Source of the DNA: Nocardia sp. NBC_00403
Lineage (GTDB): Bacteria > Actinomycetota > Actinomycetes > Mycobacteriales > Mycobacteriaceae
DNA length: 64,000 nt
Reading direction: 5' to 3'
Assembly: GCF_036046055.1 (NCBI RefSeq)
Contig: NZ_CP107939.1
Coordinates: forward strand, 6,758,001-6,822,000
Part shown: positions 6,307 through 36,720 of the stretch, piece after piece
Numbering within the stretch: position 1 is the first letter of the stretch
Layout: every line of letters begins with the position of its first letter
Notes under the pieces: generated by a model
The model's input: the letters and a program-made list of their open reading frames with translations, nothing else
The model's database searches: none
What the model was told of the DNA's origin: nothing
Made by a program: the position numbers and the translations under genes

Positions 6307-6822
6307 CTACCGCGCCGCGACCTGTGCGGCGAACGCCGCGTACGCACGCTCGTCGAACAGGACGAACCACACCTCGCGCACAGCGGTGACCGCCGCGGAC
6401 ACGGTCTCGACGGCGATCCGGGCGCCGTCGGACAGCGGCCAACCGAAGATACCGGTGGAGATGGCCGGGAACGCGACCGTGCCCGCACCCAATTCATCGG
6501 CCACCCGCAACGATTCGCGATAGCAGGAGGCCAGCAGATCCGAGCGGTCCTCGGTCGCCGACCACACCGGACCGACCGTGTGGATCACCCAGCGCGCCGG
6601 CAGTCGACCTGCCGTCGTCGCCACCGCCTGCCCAGTGCGCAGGCCCTTGCCGTAGTGCGACGCGCGCAGCTTGCGACACGCATCGAGAATCTCGGACCCG
6701 CCCTTGCGGTGGATCGCGCCGTCGACTCCGCCACCGCCGAGCAACGACGAATTCGCGGCGTTGACCACGGCGTCCACCGTTTGCTCGGTGATGTCTCCCC
6801 GCACGAGTTGCAACGTGACCAT
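6307..6822 (-). CDS. Macro-domain ADP-ribose/O-acetyl-ADP-ribose hydrolase
   Basis: The whole 171-residue protein is one macro domain. It has VVNAANSSLLGGGGVDGAIH, the ADP-ribose-binding Asn and Gly-rich loop of the MacroD/YmdB class, and AISTGIFGWP, the second phosphate-binding loop. Members of this class remove O-acetyl-ADP-ribose or mono-ADP-ribose. The start is set at the ATG giving MVTLQLVRGDIT, the usual beginning of the family; an ATG nine codons upstream is possible. It is close in type to, but not very similar to, the macro-like protein at 32.7 kb. Confidence 0.93.
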   Translation of the reverse strand: MVTLQLVRGDITEQTVDAVVNAANSSLLGGGGVDGAIHRKGGSEILDACRKLRASHYGKGLRTGQAVATTAGRLPARWVIHTVGPVWSATEDRSDLLASCYRESLRVADELGAGTVAFPAISTGIFGWPLSDGARIAVETVSAAVTAVREVWFVLFDERAYAAFAAQVAAR

Positions 6823-9838: not shown

Positions 9839-10792
9839 ATGAGTGAAGACAAGACAATGCGTGCGATCAGCCAGGACGTTCTCGGCGGGCCCGAGGTTCT
9901 CATAGAGGCGCAACTGCCACGTCCGGTGCCCGGGCCCGGCGAGATTCTGGTTCGCGTGCGTGCGGCGGGACTCAACCCGACCGACTGGCGACACCGCGCA
10001 GTGCCCGGTCTGTTCCTCGCGGAGCCGCCGTTCGTACTCGGCTGGGACGTATCCGGCGACGTGGTCGCAACCGGCATCGGGGTGACGCTCTTCGCGCCTG
10101 GCGACGAGGTCTTCGGCATGCTCCCCTACCCGTACGGTCACGGCGCGCTCGCCGAGTACACGACCGGACCGGCACGCGCCTTCGCACGGAAACCGACTGG
10201 GCTGGACCATATTCGAGCCGCCGCGATCCCGCTCGCCGCCCTCACCGCCTGGCAGGCACTTGTCGATACCGCGGACCTCACCGCCGGACAGCGCGTCCTG
10301 ATCCATGCCGCCGCGGGCGGCGTCGGACACTTCGCCGTCCAAATCGCCAAGGCCCGTGGCGCATACGTGATCGGCACCGCGAGCGCGGCCAATCACGAAT
10401 TCCTGAGCGCTCTCGGCGTCGACGAGGCGATCGATTACCGGACAACAGATTTCGCCGAGGCAGCCCGCGATGTGGACGTGGTGCTCGACTCGATCGACGA
10501 CGAGAACAGCCTCCGCTCCCTGCACACCCTGCGCCCCGGCGGCCTGCTGATCTCCCTGCGTGCCTTCGGCCCTGCCGATTTGGCGGCCGAGGCCGACATG
10601 TTGGGCGTACGCGCAGTCCGCATGCTGGTGGAAGACGACCACGCCGGCATGACCGCGCTCGCACAACTCGCCGAAACCGGCGCGCTGCGACCGACAATCG
10701 CCGGGACCTTCCCACTGGCAGACGCCGCAAAGGCGCACGCACTCGGCGACACCGGCCGCACCGTAGGCAAGTTGGTGCTGACGGTGCCGTAG
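9839..10792 (+). CDS. Zinc-independent MDR family NADP-dependent oxidoreductase
   Basis: A 317-residue quinone reductase/enoyl reductase-type MDR protein. The GroES-like N-terminal domain contains PVPGPGEILVRVRAAGLNPT, and the Rossmann domain has AAAGGVGHFAVQIAKARGAY, the MDR signature for NADP(H). No structural zinc cysteines are present. It probably reduces a quinone or an activated double bond. ATG 9857 (MRAISQD) is an alternative start. It is divergent from and probably controlled by the GlxA-type regulator. Confidence 0.9.
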   Translation: MSEDKTMRAISQDVLGGPEVLIEAQLPRPVPGPGEILVRVRAAGLNPTDWRHRAVPGLFLAEPPFVLGWDVSGDVVATGIGVTLFAPGDEVFGMLPYPYGHGALAEYTTGPARAFARKPTGLDHIRAAAIPLAALTAWQALVDTADLTAGQRVLIHAAAGGVGHFAVQIAKARGAYVIGTASAANHEFLSALGVDEAIDYRTTDFAEAARDVDVVLDSIDDENSLRSLHTLRPGGLLISLRAFGPADLAAEADMLGVRAVRMLVEDDHAGMTALAQLAETGALRPTIAGTFPLADAAKAHALGDTGRTVGKLVLTVP

Positions 10793-27445: not shown

Positions 27446-29692
27446 TCAGACCAGCTCGGGTGTGCTGCGCTGCCCGGCATCATCGATCTCGACGAGCCCG
27501 TGAATGGTGATCCCGACGACGCGCGCGCTGGCGATGTCGAAGAACAGGCCCGACACCGTCACACCGCGCTGGGCGATGGCCGCCTGCACCGCCGGATGCC
27601 GGTGCAGAGTCTCCAACTGGACCGCCACGTTCACCATGCCGAGCTGGTCGACAGCACCGAACCCGGCCGCCTCGGCCGCCGCCGCGACCGGGTGCCCGAA
27701 GCGGAAGCGTTCGAGGCTCGGGTCGGCGTGCGCCAGCCAGGGCCCGATCCCCGGGCCGGTATCGGTTCCGGAATACAACGCCTTCATCGCGCCGCACGAG
27801 GAGTGGCCGCAGACCACGACAGAGCGCACATCGAGCTCCTGCAGCGCGAAGATCAACGCGGCCTCTACCGACGCGTCACCGGATACCGGAACCAGGTTGC
27901 CCACATTGCGGACGGTGAACATGTCGCCGGGACCGCTGCTGGTGATGATGTTGGGCACGATCCGCGAGTCCGAGCAGGTGAGGAAGAACGAATGCGGATC
28001 CTGTGAGTCGTGCAGGTCATCCAGGTGCGGGCGCACCACATGCGCATGGCTACGGTGGTATGCCGCGACGCCCGAGGTGACCGAATCGATGTTCTTGTCG
28101 TCGCTACGCCATGGACCGAGAATCTCGTCCATGGCCGCCCGACCGAAGCCGCGCGCGGGCGGGCCCGCCGTTACCGCGGCCATGCGCGCACTACCGATCT
28201 CCACGAATTCGACAGTGCCGCCGCTGCTTTCCTGCTGGCGCACCCATTCCTCGATGGCTTCGAAGGCGGCGTGATCGAGGAAGTCCACGGTCATCTCGAC
28301 GGTGACGTCGGCACCGGCGGGCACCTTCGCCAACTCCGTGGACAGCTTCGGCAAGGCCAGAAAGGTGCAGGAACCGTCGATGGTGACCAGCCACCGCTGC
28401 GAACCCGGGACCTGCATAGCGGCGACGGCCACTCGTACCACGCGCCACAGCAGCAGGCCGAAGGCCAGCGCCAGACCGATGATCACGCCTTCCAGCAGGT
28501 TCAGGAACACGACGGCGACCACGGTGACCGTGTAGACCAGCAGATCACCGGTGCGCCGGGCGAGCTTGATGTGGGCCAGCTTCACCAGTTGGACGCCGAT
28601 CACGATCAGCAGACCCGCCAGCGCGGCCTTCGGAATCTGCTGCACGAGTCCGGCCAGCGCGACCGAGAACAGCAGAATCCAGAATCCGTGCAGCACCGCA
28701 GAGGCCCGGCTGCGCGCGCCCGCCTGCGCATTGGTGGCACTGCGGACGATCACACCGGTGATCGGTAGACCACCGAGCAGACCGGAGACCACGTTCGCGG
28801 AGCCCTGGCCGATGAGTTCCCGGTCGAAATTGGTGCGCTGACCGGTGTGCATCTTGTCGACGGCCACCGCCGAAAGCAGGCTCTCGACGCTGGCGATGAG
28901 TGCGATGGTCAGCACCATGATCGCCACCGCGGACCAATCACCGCTCGGCAGGCTCGGCAGCTCGATCGCGTCGAACAGTGAGCCGCTCAACACAATTCGC
29001 TCGGCACCTGTGGGCAATACCAAGGAAAGGACGGTGCCGACGAACACCGCGACCAGCGGTCCGGGAATGGCACGCACCCGAGCGGGAACATGACGCCATC
29101 CGAGCATGATCGCGATGACCACCATGCCGATGAAGGCACCGCCGCCGTGCAGGTTCATCAACTGACCGGGCAGCTCCACGATGTTCTTCCACGCCGAGCT
29201 GTGGGAGGAACCACCGAGCAGCACATGGATCTGCTGCAGTGCGATGGTGATGCCGATGCCGGCAAGCATTGCGTGCACCACAACGGGCGCGACCGCGAGC
29301 GCCGCACGCGCGATGCGACTGAGCCCGAAGAGGATCTGCAACAGACCGGCCGCCACCACGATGAAACAGGTGACGCGCCAACCGAATTCACTGATCGACT
29401 CGGCGACGACCACGGTGAGACCGGCGGCAGGGCCGCTCACCTGGAGCACGGAACCGCCGACTGTGCCGGCGACGACACCGCCGATAACGGCAGCGATGAG
29501 CCCGGCGGCCACCGGCGCGCCGGAGGCGAGGGCGATGCCTAGCGACAGCGGTAGAGCGACCAGAAATACAACGATCGACGCAGGCACGTCGTGGCGTAGG
29601 ACAGACGCCAAGCGGCCGGATCGCGATCCAGAATCATCCCCCGATTCAGTGGGCGGTGACAGCGGTGTGGCTACATCGTTCTCGACGGCCAT
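27446..29692 (-). CDS. SulP anion transporter fused to beta-carbonic anhydrase, copy 1
   Basis: The 748-residue protein has an SulP/SLC26 transporter domain (about residues 30-430, with FLVALPLSLGIALASGAPVA and the Gly-rich core), a short STAS-like segment (430-510) and a beta-carbonic anhydrase domain (540-748). The anhydrase keeps zinc ligands C573, H630 and C633 (CSDSR and CGHSSCGAM) and the D575-R577 dyad. It probably moves bicarbonate or another anion and interconverts CO2 and bicarbonate at the membrane; mycobacterial Rv3273 has the same architecture. Ribosome site GAAGGAGA stands before the ATG. It lies directly downstream of a paralogue. Confidence 0.95.
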   Translation of the reverse strand: MAVENDVATPLSPPTESGDDSGSRSGRLASVLRHDVPASIVVFLVALPLSLGIALASGAPVAAGLIAAVIGGVVAGTVGGSVLQVSGPAAGLTVVVAESISEFGWRVTCFIVVAAGLLQILFGLSRIARAALAVAPVVVHAMLAGIGITIALQQIHVLLGGSSHSSAWKNIVELPGQLMNLHGGGAFIGMVVIAIMLGWRHVPARVRAIPGPLVAVFVGTVLSLVLPTGAERIVLSGSLFDAIELPSLPSGDWSAVAIMVLTIALIASVESLLSAVAVDKMHTGQRTNFDRELIGQGSANVVSGLLGGLPITGVIVRSATNAQAGARSRASAVLHGFWILLFSVALAGLVQQIPKAALAGLLIVIGVQLVKLAHIKLARRTGDLLVYTVTVVAVVFLNLLEGVIIGLALAFGLLLWRVVRVAVAAMQVPGSQRWLVTIDGSCTFLALPKLSTELAKVPAGADVTVEMTVDFLDHAAFEAIEEWVRQQESSGGTVEFVEIGSARMAAVTAGPPARGFGRAAMDEILGPWRSDDKNIDSVTSGVAAYHRSHAHVVRPHLDDLHDSQDPHSFFLTCSDSRIVPNIITSSGPGDMFTVRNVGNLVPVSGDASVEAALIFALQELDVRSVVVCGHSSCGAMKALYSGTDTGPGIGPWLAHADPSLERFRFGHPVAAAAEAAGFGAVDQLGMVNVAVQLETLHRHPAVQAAIAQRGVTVSGLFFDIASARVVGITIHGLVEIDDAGQRSTPELV

Positions 29693-29840
29693 TGACTCTC
29701 CTTCGCCGAACTCGGCAAGTGCCGAGGTCGGTTGACGATCAACATGTCCAGCAGGGCATAAGACCGCGAACCGGCATCTCGCGGTGAAGCAGTTCCCGAC
29801 CCGGCAACGGGTCGAGATGTAAATCCCAACAAGGGTATTG

Positions 29841-29858
29841 GTAAAGACTTAGCAAAGC
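29841..29858 (-). promoter_or_regulatory. Conserved 18-base element upstream of SulP-CA copy 1
   Basis: GTAAAGACTTAGCAAAGC (plus strand) lies about 150 bases before the start of copy 1. The same sequence with one base changed precedes copy 2 at almost the same distance. CTTTGC/CTTTAC direct repeats and a CTTnGCnAAG palindrome can be seen inside on the minus strand. Confidence 0.6.
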
Positions 29859-29963
29859 CTGAGAAGTAGTCCCGCGATGCCCCGACTCCATGCTCGAACC
29901 ACACCGTGACGTTCCGCACAACTGCCCCGGCCGACCGGAAAAGGTCGGCCGACACCGCCACCG

Positions 29964-32195
29964 CTACACAGGTTCCGCGGCGACACGGCTACCCGCATCG
30001 TCGAACTCGGCGATCCCGTCGACAGTGACCTCGATGAGGCGCGCTGTGGCTATGTCGAAAAACAGCCCCGACACCGCGACACCGCGTTCCTCGATCCCAT
30101 AACGCACCGCAGGGTGCGCGTACAGTCGCTCCAATTGCAGCGCGACATTCACCATGCCGAGCTGATCCACCTGGCCGAAACCGACGAGGGCCGCGGCGGC
30201 GGCCACCGGATGCCCGAGACGAAACCGGTCCAGGCTCGGTCGCGCATGCGCGAGCCAATCGCCCAGCCCTGGCCCTGTCTGCACCTCGTGGTGCAGGGCC
30301 TCCATCGCGCCGCAGCCGGAATGCCCGCACACCACCACAGCACGCACGTCCAGCTTCTCCAGCGCGTAGATCAGCGCTGCCTCCACCGAGACATCGCTGC
30401 TGCCCGCCGGGACCAGATTGCCGACGTTCCGGACGGTGAACAGATCACCGGGACCGCTGTTGGTGATGACGTTGGGCACGATACGAGCATCGGCGCAGGT
30501 CAGAAAGAAGGAATCGGCGTCGGGACGGTTACGTAATCCATCCAGATGCGGGCGCATGAGATGGGCGTGGCCACGGTGGTAGGCCGTGATGCCCGCGGCG
30601 ATCGGATCCTCCCGGTTGCCGGTGCGCCGCCACGGCCCGATCACCTCGTCGATGACCTGCCTGGAACGGCCGCGTTCCGGCGGACCTGCCTCCGCCCTTG
30701 CCATCCGCGCGCTCCCGATTTCGACGAATTCGACTATCCCGCCGTCGGATTCACGCTTAGCCGCCCAGTCGGTGATCAGTTGACATGAGGCATGGTCGAG
30801 GAAGTCGACGGTCATCTCGATGGTGACCTCGGCACCTGCGGGCACCTTGGCCAGTTCGGCGGTGAGTTTCGGTAGCGCAAGGAAGGTGCAGGTGCCGTCG
30901 ATGGTCACCACCCAGCGCCGGGCACCGGTCACGGGTTCGGCGATGATCGTCACCCGGACCACCCGCCACAACAACAGCGCGAACGACAGCAGCAGGCCGA
31001 TCACCATGCCCTGCAACAGATTCAGGAACACCACGCCTAGCACTGTCGCCACATAGACATACAGCTCGCCGGTGCGGCGGGCCAGCCGGATGTGTGCCAA
31101 TTTCACCAGTTGCACGCCGATCAGGATGAGCAGCCCGGCCAGCGCCGCCTTGGGGATCTGCTGGACAAGCCCCGCCAGCGCGACCGCGAACAACAGGATC
31201 CAGACACCGTGCAGCACGGTCGCGGCCCTGGTCTGCGCCCCCGCATGGGCATTGGTGATGCTGCGGACGATCACCGCGGCGACGGGTAACCCACCGAGCA
31301 GGCCGGACACCATGTTCGCCGAACCCTGTCCGATGAGTTCACGATCGAAGTTCGTCGGCTTGTCCGGACGCGACTTGTCCACCGCGACGGCCGACAACAG
31401 GCTCTCCACGCTGGCGATCAGCGCGATCGTCACCATCGTCACCGCGATGGCCGACCAGCTGCCGGACGGAATCGCAGGCAAGCCGATCGAATCGAGCAGG
31501 GACCCGTTCAACACGATGCGCTCGACATGCGTCGGCAGCACCAGCGACAGAACCGTCGCGACGACGACCGCGACCAGTGGGCCCGGCACCACACGCACCG
31601 GGCGCGGCACGGCCTTCCATGCGATGAGAATCGCGATGACAACCACACCGATGGCCAGGTCACCGCGATGCACCGACATCAGCTGTTGCGGCAGGGCCGC
31701 GAGGCTGGCAAACGACGAACTCAGCGAGTTGCCGCCGAGTAGCACATGCACCTGCTGCAGCGCGATGATCACGCCGATGCCCGCCAGCATCGCGTGCACC
31801 ACCACCGGCGCGATCGCCAGTGCACCGCGCGCGACCCGGCTCACACCGAACAGAATCTGCAGCACACCCGCGCCCACAGTGATGAAACATGTTGCTGCCC
31901 AGCCGAATTGATGCACACTCTCGGCGACGATAACGGTGAGACTCGCGGTCGGCCCGCTCACCTGCACCGCCGAGCCGCCGAGTAGCCCGGCGACAACGCC
32001 GCCGACGACGGCCGCGATGAGGCCCGCGGCGACGGGCGCGCCGGAGGCCACTGCGATACCCAGCGAAAGTGGCAGTGCGACAAGGAAAACCACGACCGAA
32101 GCGGGCAAGTCATGGCGGCCGATGGCGGCGAGACGTTCGGGAATACCTGCGCGCGGCGGCGACGTCCGTGGTGCGGGATCGGTGTCGGTGGACAT
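29964..32195 (-). CDS. SulP anion transporter fused to beta-carbonic anhydrase, copy 2
   Basis: A 743-residue paralogue of the downstream gene with the same three-part layout: SulP transporter, STAS-like segment and beta-carbonic anhydrase. The zinc site is present as CADAR (CxDxR) and CGHSGCGAM. The two proteins are alike over their full length but clearly diverged (for example CADAR against CSDSR), so the duplication is old. The start ATG has AAGGAG just upstream; the leader TTCGGCGAAGGAGA is shared by both copies. Upstream are the conserved 18-base element and a perfect Crp-type site. Confidence 0.95.
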   Translation of the reverse strand: MSTDTDPAPRTSPPRAGIPERLAAIGRHDLPASVVVFLVALPLSLGIAVASGAPVAAGLIAAVVGGVVAGLLGGSAVQVSGPTASLTVIVAESVHQFGWAATCFITVGAGVLQILFGVSRVARGALAIAPVVVHAMLAGIGVIIALQQVHVLLGGNSLSSSFASLAALPQQLMSVHRGDLAIGVVVIAILIAWKAVPRPVRVVPGPLVAVVVATVLSLVLPTHVERIVLNGSLLDSIGLPAIPSGSWSAIAVTMVTIALIASVESLLSAVAVDKSRPDKPTNFDRELIGQGSANMVSGLLGGLPVAAVIVRSITNAHAGAQTRAATVLHGVWILLFAVALAGLVQQIPKAALAGLLILIGVQLVKLAHIRLARRTGELYVYVATVLGVVFLNLLQGMVIGLLLSFALLLWRVVRVTIIAEPVTGARRWVVTIDGTCTFLALPKLTAELAKVPAGAEVTIEMTVDFLDHASCQLITDWAAKRESDGGIVEFVEIGSARMARAEAGPPERGRSRQVIDEVIGPWRRTGNREDPIAAGITAYHRGHAHLMRPHLDGLRNRPDADSFFLTCADARIVPNVITNSGPGDLFTVRNVGNLVPAGSSDVSVEAALIYALEKLDVRAVVVCGHSGCGAMEALHHEVQTGPGLGDWLAHARPSLDRFRLGHPVAAAAALVGFGQVDQLGMVNVALQLERLYAHPAVRYGIEERGVAVSGLFFDIATARLIEVTVDGIAEFDDAGSRVAAEPV

Positions 32196-32328
32196 AATTC
32201 TCCTTCGCCGAATCGGCAGCAGCCGATCCGGTTCATCGGTCGAACATGTACTGGCATCGAAAGCGAGCGGCGGGCGAAGCTGTTGCTTCGTGGAGCAGCG
32301 ACCCGATGATGCGAAGGTCGGGGAAATA

Positions 32329-32346
32329 GTAAAGACTTCGCAAAGC
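32329..32346 (-). promoter_or_regulatory. Conserved 18-base element upstream of SulP-CA copy 2
   Basis: GTAAAGACTTCGCAAAGC differs at one base from the element before copy 1 and lies 134 bases upstream of the start codon. The flanks do not match, so the motif itself has been retained. Confidence 0.6.
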
Positions 32347-32391
32347 GTATGGAAAGCTTTTGAAGGCAACCCGCACAAATTGCTATCAAAC

Positions 32392-32692: not shown

Positions 32693-33370
32693 TCAGCGAT
32701 TGGTCGCGGGGCGTTCGGGCCGCGCGATGCGTACCCGCTGGTCGTTGGGCGCATTCTCGATGTCGTCGAGTTGCGCAATGATTGTGCTGCGCAGGTCGTC
32801 GTAGTCTTCGAACCAGTAGTCGGTGAACAACGTGTAGCCCGTCCACATCAGGTTGGCGCACACGCGGGCAGGCACACTGCCGGTTTGGGCGCCCATGCCG
32901 ACCAGCGCCACCGATTCGATGCTGCCCGGCGCTTCGTTGTTCTGCCGGTGGATCGCCTGGAACCCGGCGGCACACGCCAAGGCCACATTCAGGGTCTCAC
33001 TGACGTTCTGTACGGACGTTTCCATTGTCGGCGTCGAGATCAAGAACTTCGGGTCGGTCGCCCCGGACGGAACGCACACCGCGCTTCCCACCGGAAGCCT
33101 TCCCGCGAACTGATCACGGATCGCCCGCTGCACTCGCAGTTGAATCCCCGCCCCGAGGTGCCGCTTGATGACCGCATCGACCCCTCCGTCCATCCGGCCC
33201 CGGGAGTTGGTCGGGGTGACCCAGGCATCGACATGCTCGTCAAGGATTGAGCCCCTGCGGATCTCGATTTCGGGGTTGTCGGCAAAGGCCGCCCGCCACG
33301 CCTCCACAACGTGCGGGTTGATGTCGGTCAGCACCACCCGCAGCGGCGCCTGCACACGGTTCATGGTCAT
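32693..33370 (-). CDS. Macro-domain-like protein, divergent partner of the UDG-ART fusion
   Basis: A 225-residue protein with a divergent macro fold: VTPTNSRGRMDGGVDAVIKR corresponds to the ADP-ribose-binding Asn and Gly-rich loop, LPVGSAVCVPSG and FLISTPTM to the following strands, and VALVGMGAQTGSVPA to the second phosphate loop. Related actinobacterial proteins have SFGFMDGGID-type loops. It may bind or hydrolyse ADP-ribose adducts. The start ATG has GGAG six bases upstream. It is divergent from a gene carrying an ADP-ribosyltransferase domain with only about 100 bases between, which suggests an antidote or reversal role (inference). Confidence 0.8.
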   Translation of the reverse strand: MTMNRVQAPLRVVLTDINPHVVEAWRAAFADNPEIEIRRGSILDEHVDAWVTPTNSRGRMDGGVDAVIKRHLGAGIQLRVQRAIRDQFAGRLPVGSAVCVPSGATDPKFLISTPTMETSVQNVSETLNVALACAAGFQAIHRQNNEAPGSIESVALVGMGAQTGSVPARVCANLMWTGYTLFTDYWFEDYDDLRSTIIAQLDDIENAPNDQRVRIARPERPATNR

Positions 33371-33435
33371 GGTCAACTCCAATCTGGATGCGGTTCTCCC
33401 ACCCGTTCACGACGCTACCGCGACCCACCGACATG

Positions 33436-33450
33436 TCCTCTGTCAGAGGA
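33436..33450. promoter_or_regulatory. 15-base palindrome in the macro/UDG-ART divergent promoter
   Basis: TCCTCTGTCAGAGGA is a perfect palindrome around a central T. Its right half forms the AGAGGAG ribosome-site-like sequence ahead of ATG 33457. It could be an operator for shared control of the divergent pair. Confidence 0.5.
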
Positions 33451-33481
33451 GATTTCATGAAATATAGTGCCGATGGTGAGC

Positions 33482-35065
33482 ATGAATGATCCACTGGCCC
33501 TTGCTGAATTGTTCAAAGGCGGCGGTGAGCCGTGGCTGCCACTGCTGAAGCCGGTCATCGAGGCACGGCCGGACGCGGCAACATTTATGGGCCCGGGCCG
33601 CAGCCCGCGCATCGTCCCCGTCCGGGAACTGACCTTCCAGGCGCTCAAGCCCAATCCACCACACAAGTGGAAGGTCGTCGTCTTCGGCCAGAACCCATAC
33701 CCGCGGCCGGAGAGCGCCACTGGCATCGCCATGTTCGACAACACCTTCCACGACTGGAAAAACAGCCAGTTCGGACGGGTCGTCAGCATCCGCTGCATCA
33801 TCAAAGCAGCGGCGATGTGGAAGTACGGCATCCCGAAGAAGACTCCGATTGCCGACATTCGCGCACTCTTGCACGAGCAGGACGCCGTGCAGCCTCCGGA
33901 GTGGTTCCAGGCGATGCTCACCCAGGGTGTACTGCTGCTCAACGCAGCGCTCACCGCCAGTAGCGACGGAGCGCTGGGAACCGATCAGCACACAGCGTTC
34001 TGGCGTCCCGTTGCCGAGCGGATCGTCGAAGAGATCCTCAGGGCCAAGCAGAACGCCGACGAGGCCGACCGTGGTGTTGTCTTCGCCTGGTGGGGGACCC
34101 ACGCGCGCAGTCTGAAAAAGGTCGTCCTGCAACTCCAGAAGAAGTACCCCCAGGTCGAAGTCCGGCACGTAGACCACGCCAACCCTGCCGCGCAGGGTGA
34201 CATCTTTTGCAACGGTGACCATTTCGCAACGGTGAACGCGGCCCTCGCAGCGCTGGGCGCCGACGAGATCGACTGGTTGCCGAGCACAGGGTGGAACAAG
34301 CTTGCAACGGAAGCCGACGGGACCGACCACGACATCGCCGAGCGTATGGGCGCGTTCATCGCGTCGACCATGGAGCTGCACCAGCTTTACCTCGAACGGC
34401 TCGCGAGCGTCAAGGACGAGGGACTCGTCCTTGACGCGATCACCGGCGTATTCGACACCCCGCTCATGGACTTCCACGACGCCATCGCCCCGATCGCCAA
34501 GCTGCTGTCCGGTCTCGATCGGCACGCCGCGCTGTCGCACGAGTTCGGCAAGAGGCGGGCGGACCAGACGGCCGGGAGACTCTCCGCCAACGCGATTGCC
34601 GCCCTCCACATTTACACCTGCGAGTCCGCGTTCTATCGGGAGATCAACGCCGTCCTGCGCGCCCCGGACCGCACGAAACTCGCCCCGTACCTCCCGTACC
34701 TGCGACTGCTGTTCTCGGCGGTGTCACGGCTTCCCACACGTAGCGAGCCGTTGTGGCGCGGGGTATCACTGGACCTGCGTGCGCAGTACCCACTAGGTCG
34801 GACCGTGACGTGGTGGGGAGTGTCCTCCTGCACGTCCGAGCCCAACGTGGCACAGGCATTCCTCGGTAGTCGTGGCAAGCGAACGCTCTTCGAGGTACAC
34901 CCCACTCGGGCCGTGAGCATCCGGAGTTTCTCCGCGTTCACCGACGAAGAGGAATTCATCCTCTTGCCGGGCACGCAGCTCGACGTCACGGAGGTCAAGG
35001 CCGAGCGCGGCGGGTTGTGCATCGTGAAGTTGACCGAATCAGAGGAGCAACCCCTCGTGTCCTGA
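33482..35065 (+). CDS. Fusion of uracil-DNA-glycosylase-like and arginine ADP-ribosyltransferase-like domains
   Basis: A 527-residue protein (from ATG 33482). Residues about 20-265 follow the family 1 uracil-DNA glycosylase pattern: FGQNPYP (69-74), GVLLLNAALT (149-158, base-binding Asn 154), FAWWG (201-205) and VDHANP (230-235, His 232), then HFATVNAAL. The catalytic Asp of GQDPYH is Asn 71 here. Residues about 370-510 match mono-ADP-ribosyltransferases of the R-S-E class: LWRGVS (Arg 426), WWGVSSCTS and FTDEEEFILLPG (ExE as Glu 489-Glu 491). A helical segment joins them. GTG 33467 and ATG 33473 are other starts; none has a good ribosome site. A 10-codon frame at 33457 with a strong site overlaps the start and may couple translation. 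A rho-independent terminator follows. It probably targets nucleic acid or protein with ADP-ribose; the macro neighbour would oppose it. Confidence 0.85.
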   Translation: MNDPLALAELFKGGGEPWLPLLKPVIEARPDAATFMGPGRSPRIVPVRELTFQALKPNPPHKWKVVVFGQNPYPRPESATGIAMFDNTFHDWKNSQFGRVVSIRCIIKAAAMWKYGIPKKTPIADIRALLHEQDAVQPPEWFQAMLTQGVLLLNAALTASSDGALGTDQHTAFWRPVAERIVEEILRAKQNADEADRGVVFAWWGTHARSLKKVVLQLQKKYPQVEVRHVDHANPAAQGDIFCNGDHFATVNAALAALGADEIDWLPSTGWNKLATEADGTDHDIAERMGAFIASTMELHQLYLERLASVKDEGLVLDAITGVFDTPLMDFHDAIAPIAKLLSGLDRHAALSHEFGKRRADQTAGRLSANAIAALHIYTCESAFYREINAVLRAPDRTKLAPYLPYLRLLFSAVSRLPTRSEPLWRGVSLDLRAQYPLGRTVTWWGVSSCTSEPNVAQAFLGSRGKRTLFEVHPTRAVSIRSFSAFTDEEEFILLPGTQLDVTEVKAERGGLCIVKLTESEEQPLVS

Positions 35066-35217: not shown

Positions 35218-36114
35218 AGAGCGTGTCTCATGTCGTTTTCAGCGTGCCGGAATCGGTTGTGCAGCATGACTTCTGGCCGTGGTCGACGAGTCGTCGAAGC
35301 GTCTGGTGCCGGACGAGTTGTGGGAGCTGGTGGCGCCGTTGCTGCCCGAGTTCGAGGCGCGTCGCCAGGGCGGGGGCACTGCCCCGACCGATGAGCGGGC
35401 GGTGTTCACCGCCGTGGTGTACGTGCTGACCAGCGGTTGTGTGTGGCGTTTGTTGCCGCCGTGGTTCAGGGTCACCGTGCCGACCGCGCATCGTCGGTTC
35501 ACCGTGTGGACCAAGGCTGGGCTGTGGCGGCGCCTACACCGCGCGGTCCTCGACGAACTCGGCAGCCACGGCTTGATCGACTGGTCCCGCGCGGTATGCG
35601 ACGGGGCGTCGGTGCGAGCCCAAAAAAGGGGGATCGATGACCCGCCCGAACCCGGTCGACCGCGGCAAGACCGGCTCCAAGATCCATGTGCTGTCCGACC
35701 GTCGCGGGCTGCCGCTGTCGGTCGCGGTGTCGGCGGCCAACACCAACGACGCCAACGCACTCAAACCGCTCGTGCGGGCCATCCCCGCAGTCCGTTCGCG
35801 TCGCGGGCCACGGCGACGCAAACCCGGAAAACTCCATGCCGACAAGGCATATGACCACGTCGAACTGCGCCGATGGGTGCGCGAGCGGGGCATCGGGGTC
35901 CGCATCACCCGCAAGGGCATCGAATCCAGCCACAAGCTGGGCCAACATCGATGGGTGATCGAACGAACCATCGCCTGGCTGTTCAGCTACCACCGACTCT
36001 CGATCCGATACGACCGCTACGCCAACCATTTCTGCGCCTTCCTCACCCTGGCCGCAGCATTGACCTGCTACAAGAAGCTGGCGAAAGCTCAAGCGACGAC
36101 ATGGGACACGTTCT
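35218..36114 (+). mobile_element. IS5-family insertion sequence (about 0.9 kb)
   Basis: Ends are imperfect inverted repeats: AGAGCGTGTCTCATGTCGT at the left and, read from the other strand, AGAACGTGTCCCATGTCGT at the right. Both are flanked by TA within CTAA/TTAG, the YTAR-type target of the IS427 branch. The element separates a tRNA fragment from an LpqN-like gene. Confidence 0.88.
35279..36114 (+). pseudogene. IS5-family (IS427-type) transposase, frameshifted at an A6 tract
   Basis: The N-terminal part reads LVPDELWELVAPLLPEFEAR to DGASVRAQK in one frame. The C-terminal part with RPNPVDRGKTGSKIHVLSDR, the DDE core (HADKAYDHVELRRWV) and WVIERTIAWLFSYHRL reads in another. The break is at AAAAAA, 35622-35627. 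Removing one A restores a continuous VRAQKGGSM product, whereas a -1 shift runs into a stop within a few codons. So this is either slippage-dependent expression (+1) or a homopolymer mutation or error. The second frame has no stop before the right end of the IS and would run into flanking DNA. Confidence 0.8.
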
Positions 36115-36720
36115 TAGAGGGTGCCTCGCGGCACAATTTGCAGTCCGTTGACGAAGGTGTCGAAATCGGGTTGGTACGTGTCCCGATCGGCGGCCGGGGT
36201 CTGGGCGGACATCGTGACCGGGTACCTCATTTCGCCTACATCGTAAGCGAATCCAAGGAAGTCGTTGTAAAGATCGCCATCGGAGGTGGGGGAAATCCCG
36301 GTGGTCCTGTGGGCGTCCAGACCGCACACTGAGATGATCTCAGATCCCAACTTTCGCCATCCGTCGCCCATGCTGACCCCCATCAAGGATGAGGTCCCGC
36401 GGGCGGGGAGTACGCCGAGGGTGACGGTCGCATTGCCCTTACGTAAGCCGATACGTAACACCGAACCGCCGCCTTCTTCTACTGACGTCTCCTGCCAGCC
36501 CGGCAGTTGCGGAACCTGGATAGTGAACGGCACATCAGGGCGCTGTTCGGTGGCGAAGACGGTCCCGGGTTGGGGCGCTGGCGTTGCAGGCTGGGCGAGT
36601 GGGTGAATCCGACTCCGGCCCGCCGCATGCGGTCACACTCGTTGCCACGATGGCTAGAACCAGATGCCGAATCTTGATCAGGGTTCGCCAGCCTATCCAG
36701 CCGAACCCTCGGGGCCACAC
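36114..36720 (-). pseudogene. LpqN-like lipoprotein gene, frameshifted
   Basis: The start of the reading (36720-36560) encodes a signal peptide with lipobox SVTAC followed by GGPESDSPTRP. The rest is in another frame: TPAPQPGTVFATEQRPDV, then the domain VPFTIQVPQLPGWQETSVEE to FVNGLQIVPRGTL, typical of mycobacterial LpqN/LpqT lipoproteins. One missing or extra base near 36575 separates the two. The stop TAA straddles the IS right end, so the IS sits exactly at the end of this gene. No proper ATG is seen upstream of the signal peptide. Confidence 0.65.

Follow-up and report, generated by a model that had tools for sequence, protein, structure and literature searches.

The window, by which is meant the whole 64,000-nucleotide stretch of Nocardia DNA analysed here, encodes a pair of adjoining genes for which the best explanation, held with about an even chance of being right, is a DNA-damage-induced, lesion-directed and reversible ADP-ribosylation module. 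One gene specifies a uracil-DNA glycosylase (UDG)-like domain fused to an ADP-ribosyltransferase (ART) and the other, on the opposite strand, a macrodomain protein preceded by a promoter element of the DNA-damage type. The features are listed below.

33473..35065, + strand: UDG-ART fusion gene; the reading frame of 532 codons is open from GTG 33467, and an identical database protein of 530 residues fits a start at ATG 33473
33482..34291, + strand: family-1 UDG-like domain, approximately residues 6-275 of the 532-codon frame, from sequence profiles and PDB sequence matches
34556..35038, + strand: ART domain (PF01129), residues 364-524, with R (LWRGV), S (VSSCTS) and ExE (DEEEF)
32693..33370, - strand: macrodomain gene (PF01661), likely start ATG 33370, with a longer frame from TTG 33382
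33412..33433, - strand: RecA-NDp type promoter element, TGTCGGTG-N8-TAGCGT, reading into the macrodomain gene 42 bp before its ATG

The sequence-only reading had described a UDG fold and an ART in one gene with a macro-like gene diverging about 100 bases away. The fusion was confirmed by UDG profiles, by family-1 UDGs of the PDB and by PF01129, and every motif quoted in that reading is present in it. The neighbor matched PF01661 above the cut-off (E 9.2e-11), and the two ATG codons are separated by about 100 bp. Comparison with five Nocardia orthologues gave dN/dS values of 0.07-0.11 for the UDG half, 0.10-0.23 for the ART, 0.10-0.20 for the macrodomain gene and 0.15-0.43 for the linker, low values which indicate, far beyond chance, that both genes are real. 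The UDG half was the most constrained part in all five comparisons, indicating that the domain is not decaying. A palindrome near the start of the fusion gene was also spotted by eye in the window.

The fusion matched the NCBIfam uracil-DNA glycosylase model with an E-value of 1.7e-20, scoring 73.8 bits where the curated cut-off is 162, and family-1 UDGs of the PDB by sequence at E 2.5e-14. The best of these was 5x3g, which we take to be BdiUNG of Bradyrhizobium, and it shares with the fusion the domain and its motifs, including the PYPRPES stretch. Judged by these matches, the UDG half appears to be a member of the superfamily rather than an Ung equivalog. It contains Asn in the motif GQNPYP where the genome's own Ung (GQDPYP) and other active family-1 enzymes have the catalytic Asp. 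The position was followed in a census of 117 proteins reduced at 75% identity, with counts given for the rows covering each site. The Asp64-equivalent was N in 44, S in 36, A in 4 and T, C or R in one each of 87 relatives and D in none (N42, S36, A3, T1 and C1 among the 83 well-aligned rows). The base-binding Asn (Asn123-equivalent, LLLN) was kept in 97/101 and the His187-equivalent in 82/100, the other 18 having another residue. The intercalating Leu (Leu191-equivalent, HPSPLS) was Ala in 93/99 and Leu in none. The window's fusion likewise has Ala at this position, for which insertion into DNA should be weaker, and retains the base-binding Asn. The fusion differs from family-1 UDGs in the attached ART and in scores below the NCBIfam cut-offs, and the relatives examined lack the catalytic Asp and the intercalating Leu. 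Active enzymes of the MUG/SMUG type also have Asn in place of the catalytic Asp and, since the His187-equivalent is mostly kept, weak excision by the UDG half may persist.

The same substitution in human UNG (D145N) is described in the available part of one report as 1000-fold less active in vitro, with the full-length mutant collecting at laser damage. In focus formation, the D145N catalytic domain truncated at its N-terminus ranked among the least able, suggesting that recruitment of UNG needs more than the catalytic domain (PMC3047565). The natural Asp-to-Asn change also recurs in protein engineering, where it is combined with a His change in a uracil-DNA sensor built on UNG D145N/H268N (excerpted text of PMC8070346); the sensor has both residues changed, whereas in the fusion family the Asp is changed and the His mostly kept. 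Comparison of a predicted structure with UDG and ART folds, proposed in the sequence-only reading, was informative for the ART half. The model was poor, with a pLDDT of 65, low across much of the UDG half, and only the ART half was represented among its listed structural matches; hence, the UDG fold rests on sequence.

The ART domain was recognized by PF01129 above the cut-off (E 2.2e-11), and its residues are conserved across the census: Arg in 78/80, Ser in 75/79 and the catalytic Glu in 76/76 relatives, with ExE in 75/75 well-aligned rows. These results uphold the assignment to the R-S-E class. The vertebrate enzyme ART2.2 held a tied first rank among the ART-fold matches, which also included the 6drh toxin/immunity pair, HopU1, XopAI, ExoS and Vis. 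The ART is probably arginine-type. No PARP domain was found in a Pfam scan of the fusion at E<=1, which returned the ART and a sub-threshold ADPrib_exo_Tox only. From its residues, the fusion family is predicted to be a dead-UDG reader joined to a live ART writer, and the idea that a UDG fold may bring the transferase to DNA fits the lost catalytic Asp and the retained base-binding Asn. The nearest solved relative of the macrodomain protein was yeast YMR087W (1njr), the entry title of which is ADP-ribose-1''-monophosphatase, and the match covers the entire domain with its N-terminal extension. Its matches to PADLOC models were weak (ThsA macro, E 0.017; DarG, E 0.022).

Linkage of the two genes was evaluated in 93 collected loci, five of which were copies of others, leaving 88 distinct actinobacterial loci. 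In 86 of the 88 the macrodomain gene is next to the fusion, a count over loci that share ancestry and are not independent, and the two misses are contig ends. Other neighbor genes, counted together with residue conservation per locus on all 93 loci before copies were removed, did not recur in more than six. The genes are divergent in 65 and on the same strand in 21 distinct loci (67 and 24 before removal of copies), and in 10 of the 21 co-oriented loci macrodomain, UDG and ART are encoded in a single frame. An intact fusion and a close macrodomain relative were carried by the same 13 of 394 genomes, an association between macrodomain and ART stronger than had been guessed. The fusion was present in 7/148 genomes of the window's genus and 31/199 of the genus Streptomyces. 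One genome of the former genus holds a decayed C-terminal remnant of the fusion and no macrodomain relative, and two distant macrodomain genes from genomes lacking the fusion (G394 and G512; 37% identity) had no adjoining ART as judged by eye. A plasmid search returned four records of 0.3 to 11.9 Mb. Beyond actinobacteria, relatives were found in other bacterial phyla and, among eukaryotes, in dinoflagellates, a haptophyte and a choanoflagellate; UDG-WWE proteins were found as well. The two genes form a real and mobile unit, and a patchy, mobile distribution of this kind is usual for toxin or defence cassettes.

The RecA-NDp promoter is a PafBC-type, LexA-independent DNA-damage promoter with the consensus tTGTCRgtg-8nt-TannnT, as quoted in the text available of PMC5656591. 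The element upstream of the window's macrodomain gene matches the published core. The core TGTCR-N11-TAnnnT was aimed at the macrodomain gene in 84 of the 85 distinct loci that could be tested and the reversed string in none; the longer core TGTCRGTG-N8-TAnnnT was so aimed in 72 of the 85. Before copies were removed, all consensus letters were found in 51/90 loci, and the form with TAG in 63/90 against none in each of 50 shuffles. LexA control was also considered and rejected, the SOS-box pattern occurring in 1/91 loci only. The strict form had 16 sites in this genome against none in the control, one before the macrodomain gene and six before holB, holA, polA, uvrB, uvrA and pup; seven of the 16 precede no gene that could be tied to DNA repair. 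The genome contains pafC and a WYL partner gene. In Streptomyces venezuelae, an initial search suggested that the PafBC motif of M. smegmatis is not conserved (PMC9380542, in the portion available). The core was absent toward the fusion itself in the window and was fusion-directed in 26/64 divergent loci, indicating that the writer may be constitutive and the eraser alone induced.

In the module proposed here, the family-1 UDG lacking the base-excising Asp would be the reader, recognizing DNA that contains uracil, is abasic or is distorted in some other way. The R-S-E ART, with NAD+ as its substrate, would attach single ADP-ribose units to proteins (or nucleic acid) located at the bound lesion or close to it. 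The YMR087W-like macrodomain would then remove the ADP-ribose mark or clear ADP-ribose. In the actinobacterial response to DNA damage, the PafBC/RecA-NDp branch would activate the macrodomain gene, with co-oriented or fused genes providing joint induction of writer and eraser. DNA binding, the type of lesion, the activity and target of the ART, hydrolysis by the macrodomain protein and actual induction of the module are what we infer. The SCO6735 macrodomain protein of Streptomyces coelicolor also lies behind a RecA-NDp promoter. It differs in that it groups with ALC1/TARG1, is not among the listed PDB matches of the window's macrodomain protein, and has no ART neighbor described in the part of its report available (PMC5087735).

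The pairing of an ART with an adjoining macrodomain gene, mobile and patchy, resembles DarTG, in which the DNA ADP-ribosyltransferase toxin DarT is paired with the macrodomain antitoxin DarG. A toxin-antitoxin or abortive-infection system of this kind, in which the ART would inhibit growth, the UDG half sense or target phage or damaged DNA and the macrodomain protein neutralise the ART, is unlikely although it deserves the most serious attention among the alternatives. The near-obligate linkage, the structural proximity of the ART to toxins and effectors (with ART2.2 tied for first) and the decayed remnant lacking a macrodomain relative are in its favor. However, the fusion, a PF01129 ART with an extra UDG half, had no match to PADLOC models at E<=1, and the partner is YMR087W-like with only the DarG match noted above. 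Sampled neighbors were not enriched in defence genes, PADLOC families being matched by 4/60 near and 2/60 far proteins. No IMG/VR relative was confirmed in a scan with short exact peptides of one protein, which reaches close relatives only, and phage records held no full-length relative, five weak matches being to the UDG half only. The damage promoter element before the macrodomain gene, the single macrodomain-UDG-ART frames and the eukaryotic members are further differences from DarTG. These results do not support the anti-phage or DarTG framing of the sequence-only reading. The same promoter, eukaryotic members and lack of defence context argue against a guard or decoy in which a dead UDG baits Ugi-like phage inhibitors, the binding of which would free the ART and halt the infected cell. 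Some phages inhibit UDG enzymes, and a catalytically dead, strongly conserved UDG copy with an ART attached would suit such a role, which we nevertheless regard as very improbable.

That the UDG half is instead an active glycosylase of changed specificity, excising a modified base in repair or in a Brig1-like attack on modified phage DNA with the ART acting downstream, is improbable. The mostly retained His and Asn equivalents are consistent with activity, and Brig1 is likewise an actinobacterial UDG-fold defence protein with an adjoining ADP-ribosyl glycohydrolase gene. Brig1 differs in being an active excising enzyme with a family-4 UDG as its closest structural match and, in the text available, no ART fusion described (PMC11078745). 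Against activity, the Asp is replaced in 87/87 relatives, with Ser standing there in 36, the His-equivalent is changed in 18/100, Leu is absent from the intercalating position in all 99, and an Ung with the Asp is already present in the genome. A role in NAD+ or ADP-ribose metabolism, with the macrodomain protein processing ADP-ribose-1''-phosphate and the ART serving mainly as an NAD glycohydrolase, would agree with the title of the YMR087W entry, but it leaves the UDG half and the strong constraint on it unexplained and is given very little weight.

Among the papers listed by the literature searches there was no described UDG-ART fusion system, in agreement with the sequence-only reading, and no bacterial lesion-reading transferase composed of a dead UDG and an ART. 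The lesion-directed module may further represent a PARP-like circuit for damage signalling, arisen independently of PARP and common to bacteria and protists, a proposal advanced tentatively and as somewhat doubtful. Here, the dead UDG would read lesions, the ART would mark chromatin or repair proteins and the macrodomain would erase the marks, with the actinobacterial module wired into the PafBC DNA-damage regulon. The likeness to PARP1-type signalling is an analogy in functional logic only, that of lesion reader, ADP-ribose writer and eraser; the fusion differs in having no PARP domain, R-S-E residues and a dead-UDG reader. In eukaryotes, damage-directed ADP-ribosylation is central to genome maintenance, and the module, if the proposal is true, would be a bacterial counterpart of the human damage-tagging PARP system. 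Dinoflagellate DNA is rich in hydroxymethyluracil, and the same proposal would place a base-reading ART in these protists. The transferases acting in Streptomyces were left open by the authors of the SCO6735 study in the part of it available (PMC5087735), and the fusion, if the proposal is true, would be a candidate for the missing damage-response transferase in the streptomycetes that carry it. The proposed reader, writer, eraser and promoter span about 2.4 kb and, with its eukaryotic relatives, the family is a concrete and conserved candidate.

The uracil-DNA-glycosylase (UDG)-fold/ADP-ribosyltransferase (ART) fusion beside a divergent macro-like gene, as claimed by the sequence-only reading, was confirmed by NCBIfam, PDB and Pfam matches. 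The chromosome containing the window is complete (8.7 Mb), and the nearest named relatives with the fusion gene are Nocardia. The features of the locus are:

33467-35065 (+), fusion open reading frame, UDG-like part plus ART
First ~275 residues of the fusion frame (+), UDG-like part matching family 1 (NCBIfam E 1.7e-20, short of the curated cut-off; PDB E 2.5e-14)
Residues 364-524 of the fusion frame (+), ART part (Pfam PF01129, E 2.2e-11, above cut-off)
32693-33382 (-), macrodomain open reading frame divergent from the fusion (PF01661, E 9.2e-11)
33412-33433 (-), PafBC-type promoter element (RecA-NDp), 42 bp upstream of the macro ATG

An IS4/5-type transposase is located directly downstream of the fusion (35279-36332, +) in two overlapping frames with DUF4096 in the first part, which points to either programmed frameshifting or a disrupted insertion sequence. 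Another macrodomain gene, which stands alone (6307-6822, -), has a MacroD/YmdB look by eye and a hhalign probability of 94.9 against the profile of the pair's macro. Two adjacent sulfate-permease genes occupy 27446-32378 (-), of which one (29964-32378, -) carries a fused carbonic anhydrase domain and its neighbour is similar by eye.

The fusion and the macro gene are a mobile two-gene unit. Co-occurrence in other genomes was evaluated in 93 loci comprised of 80 from a scan of genome contigs (the best 80 of 176), the window and 12 from a class-wide genome search; five are copies of others. Among the 88 distinct actinobacterial loci that remain, 86 have the macro gene beside the fusion, and in the other two (L025 and L029) the stored contig stops next to the fusion. 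The pair is divergent in 65 distinct loci and co-oriented in 21, ten of which encode macro-UDG-ART as a single continuous frame; such proteins are also present in the protein database, for example P0297 of 780 aa with both Pfam domains. With gene calls from a simple script based on frame composition, every other neighbour cluster occurs in at most six of the 93 loci. The intact fusion was found in 7/148 genomes of the window's genus (the window's own counted), 31/199 Streptomyces genomes (one as two fragments on two contigs) and 13/394 genomes of the class, or 14 counting a decayed remnant. The Streptomyces genus was assigned from loci in its genomes that are identical to named Streptomyces loci. 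A close macro relative was found in the identical 13 of the 394, and two distant macro relatives in other genomes. The fusion and macro distances are correlated (Mantel r 0.77, 0/999 permutations as high, 68 loci), of which shared species history is also a possible source.

The fusion has decayed to a C-terminal ART remnant at 10041-10279 (-) of locus L123 in G072, a genome of the window's genus in which no macro relative was found at E<=1e-10. At L005 of Nocardia crassostreae, the macro frame is interrupted by a stop near codon 50 of the aligned region, which reflects either a disrupted gene or an error in sequencing, and the adjacent fusion frame is open.

Residues were counted after redundancy reduction at 75% identity, in 117 aligned proteins that include many metagenomic or partial sequences. 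The ART half retains the Arg (78/80), Ser (75/79), first Glu (75/76) and catalytic Glu (76/76). No Asp was found at the catalytic Asp position of the UDG half in the 87 rows covering it (N44, S36, A4, T1, C1, R1), and the 83 well-aligned rows only gave N42, S36, A3, T1, C1. The base-binding Asn is present in 97/101 and the second catalytic His in 82/100; the position of the intercalating Leu is Ala in 93/99 and Leu in none. The housekeeping Ung of the genome keeps GQDPYP. The dN/dS against five Nocardia orthologues was 0.07-0.11 for the UDG half, 0.10-0.23 for ART and 0.10-0.20 for macro. Since the UDG half is under the strongest constraint despite the lost Asp, the results indicate that it is functional. 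Passages of PMC3047565 report that human UNG D145N, the replacement seen here, has 1000-fold lower activity, that the full-length mutant still accumulates at laser damage, and that N-terminal truncations with D145N are among the least competent for focus formation; a uracil-DNA sensor protein built on UNG D145N/H268N is described in part of PMC8070346. It is mainly because of these published results that the UDG half is called a reader. Based on conserved residues and the UNG mutants, the fusion appears to be a dead UDG reader joined to a live ART writer.

The RecA-NDp consensus is quoted in PMC5656591 as tTGTCRgtg-8nt-TannnT, and passages of PMC6789036 and PMC8223512 present the element as the route of PafBC action. 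The core TGTCR-N11-TAnnnT, directed at the macro gene from up to about 350 bp away, was found in 84 of 85 testable distinct loci, which leave out L007: 63/64 divergent and 21/21 co-oriented, L070 being the sole locus without it. The longer macro-directed core TGTCRGTG-N8-TAnnnT was found in 72/85 and the reversed-string control of the core in 0/85. With duplicates still in, the full-letter consensus was found in 51/90 loci and the TAG form in 63/90, the latter being absent from all 50 dinucleotide shuffles. These counts are not independent because the loci are of common ancestry. A core directed at the fusion was found in 26/64 divergent loci and is absent from the window. The strict form gave 16 sites in the whole genome (control 0): one at the macro gene, six upstream of holB, holA, polA, uvrB, uvrA and pup (NCBIfam), two upstream of a DNA-ligase-like gene and an Fpg/Nei-like gene, both assigned by eye, and seven with a following gene not linkable to repair. 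Genes for PafC and a WYL partner adjoin the Pup ligase gene. The SOS-box (LexA) pattern, found in 1/91 loci, was rejected as the damage switch. Counting against the PafBC route, a LexA paper on S. venezuelae mentions an initial search that suggested a lack of conservation of the mycobacterial PafBC motif in that species (PMC9380542). The SCO6735 paper (PMC5087735) does describe RecA-NDp promoters for several Streptomyces. The promoter sequence suggests that the module is linked to DNA damage.

A location in defence islands was also considered and was not supported by PADLOC, neighbour, IMG/VR and phage searches. No PADLOC model matched the fusion at E<=1, and at 1e-10 PADLOC families matched 4/60 near versus 2/60 far proteins in the neighbour sample. 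The IMG/VR scan, limited to close relatives, confirmed none, and phage records gave five weak matches, all to the UDG half. The words glycosylase, UDG and uracil are absent from the main text of a survey of viral NAD+/ADP-ribose systems (PMC9503650).

Relatives were found beyond Actinobacteria. That of Salpingoeca rosetta (753-kb contig) shares 61% over the UDG half, the predicted protein being without the ART-Arg stretch, and that of Symbiodinium natans (719 aa, 590-kb contig) has the ART. Further source-named relatives include those of Effrenium, Amphidinium massartii (taxid 160604) and Prymnesium (partial), and the red alga Gracilariopsis has only the UDG half (205 aa). The relatives from Planctomycetota, Acidobacteria and Sandaracinaceae MAGs are all partial. 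Several relatives beyond Actinobacteria contain basic N-terminal stretches such as MPPKKK. P0182 and P0184, both short and without the ART part, combine a WWE domain, a known ADP-ribose reader, with a UDG half of this family. In a quick phylogeny of 75 rows, of which 54 lack a source name, with midpoint rooting only, a branch of SH-aLRT 100 separated the named bacteria and S. rosetta from the other 14 eukaryotic rows.

The component families are all known. Among the literature matches listed, no description of a UDG-ART fusion was found in the open-access papers searched, nor of combining UDG, ART and macro, of a dead UDG as reader, of the damage promoter or of the spread to protists. In the mechanism we propose, damage would induce the macro gene, with the fusion co-induced where the transcript is shared. 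We infer that the lesion read would be uracil, abasic or distorted DNA, on which the dead UDG would dock; the ART would mark something at the docked site, and the macrodomain would take the mark off, its presence as partner suggesting that the mark is reversible. Overall, the pair would be a variant of the reversible ADP-ribosylation systems.
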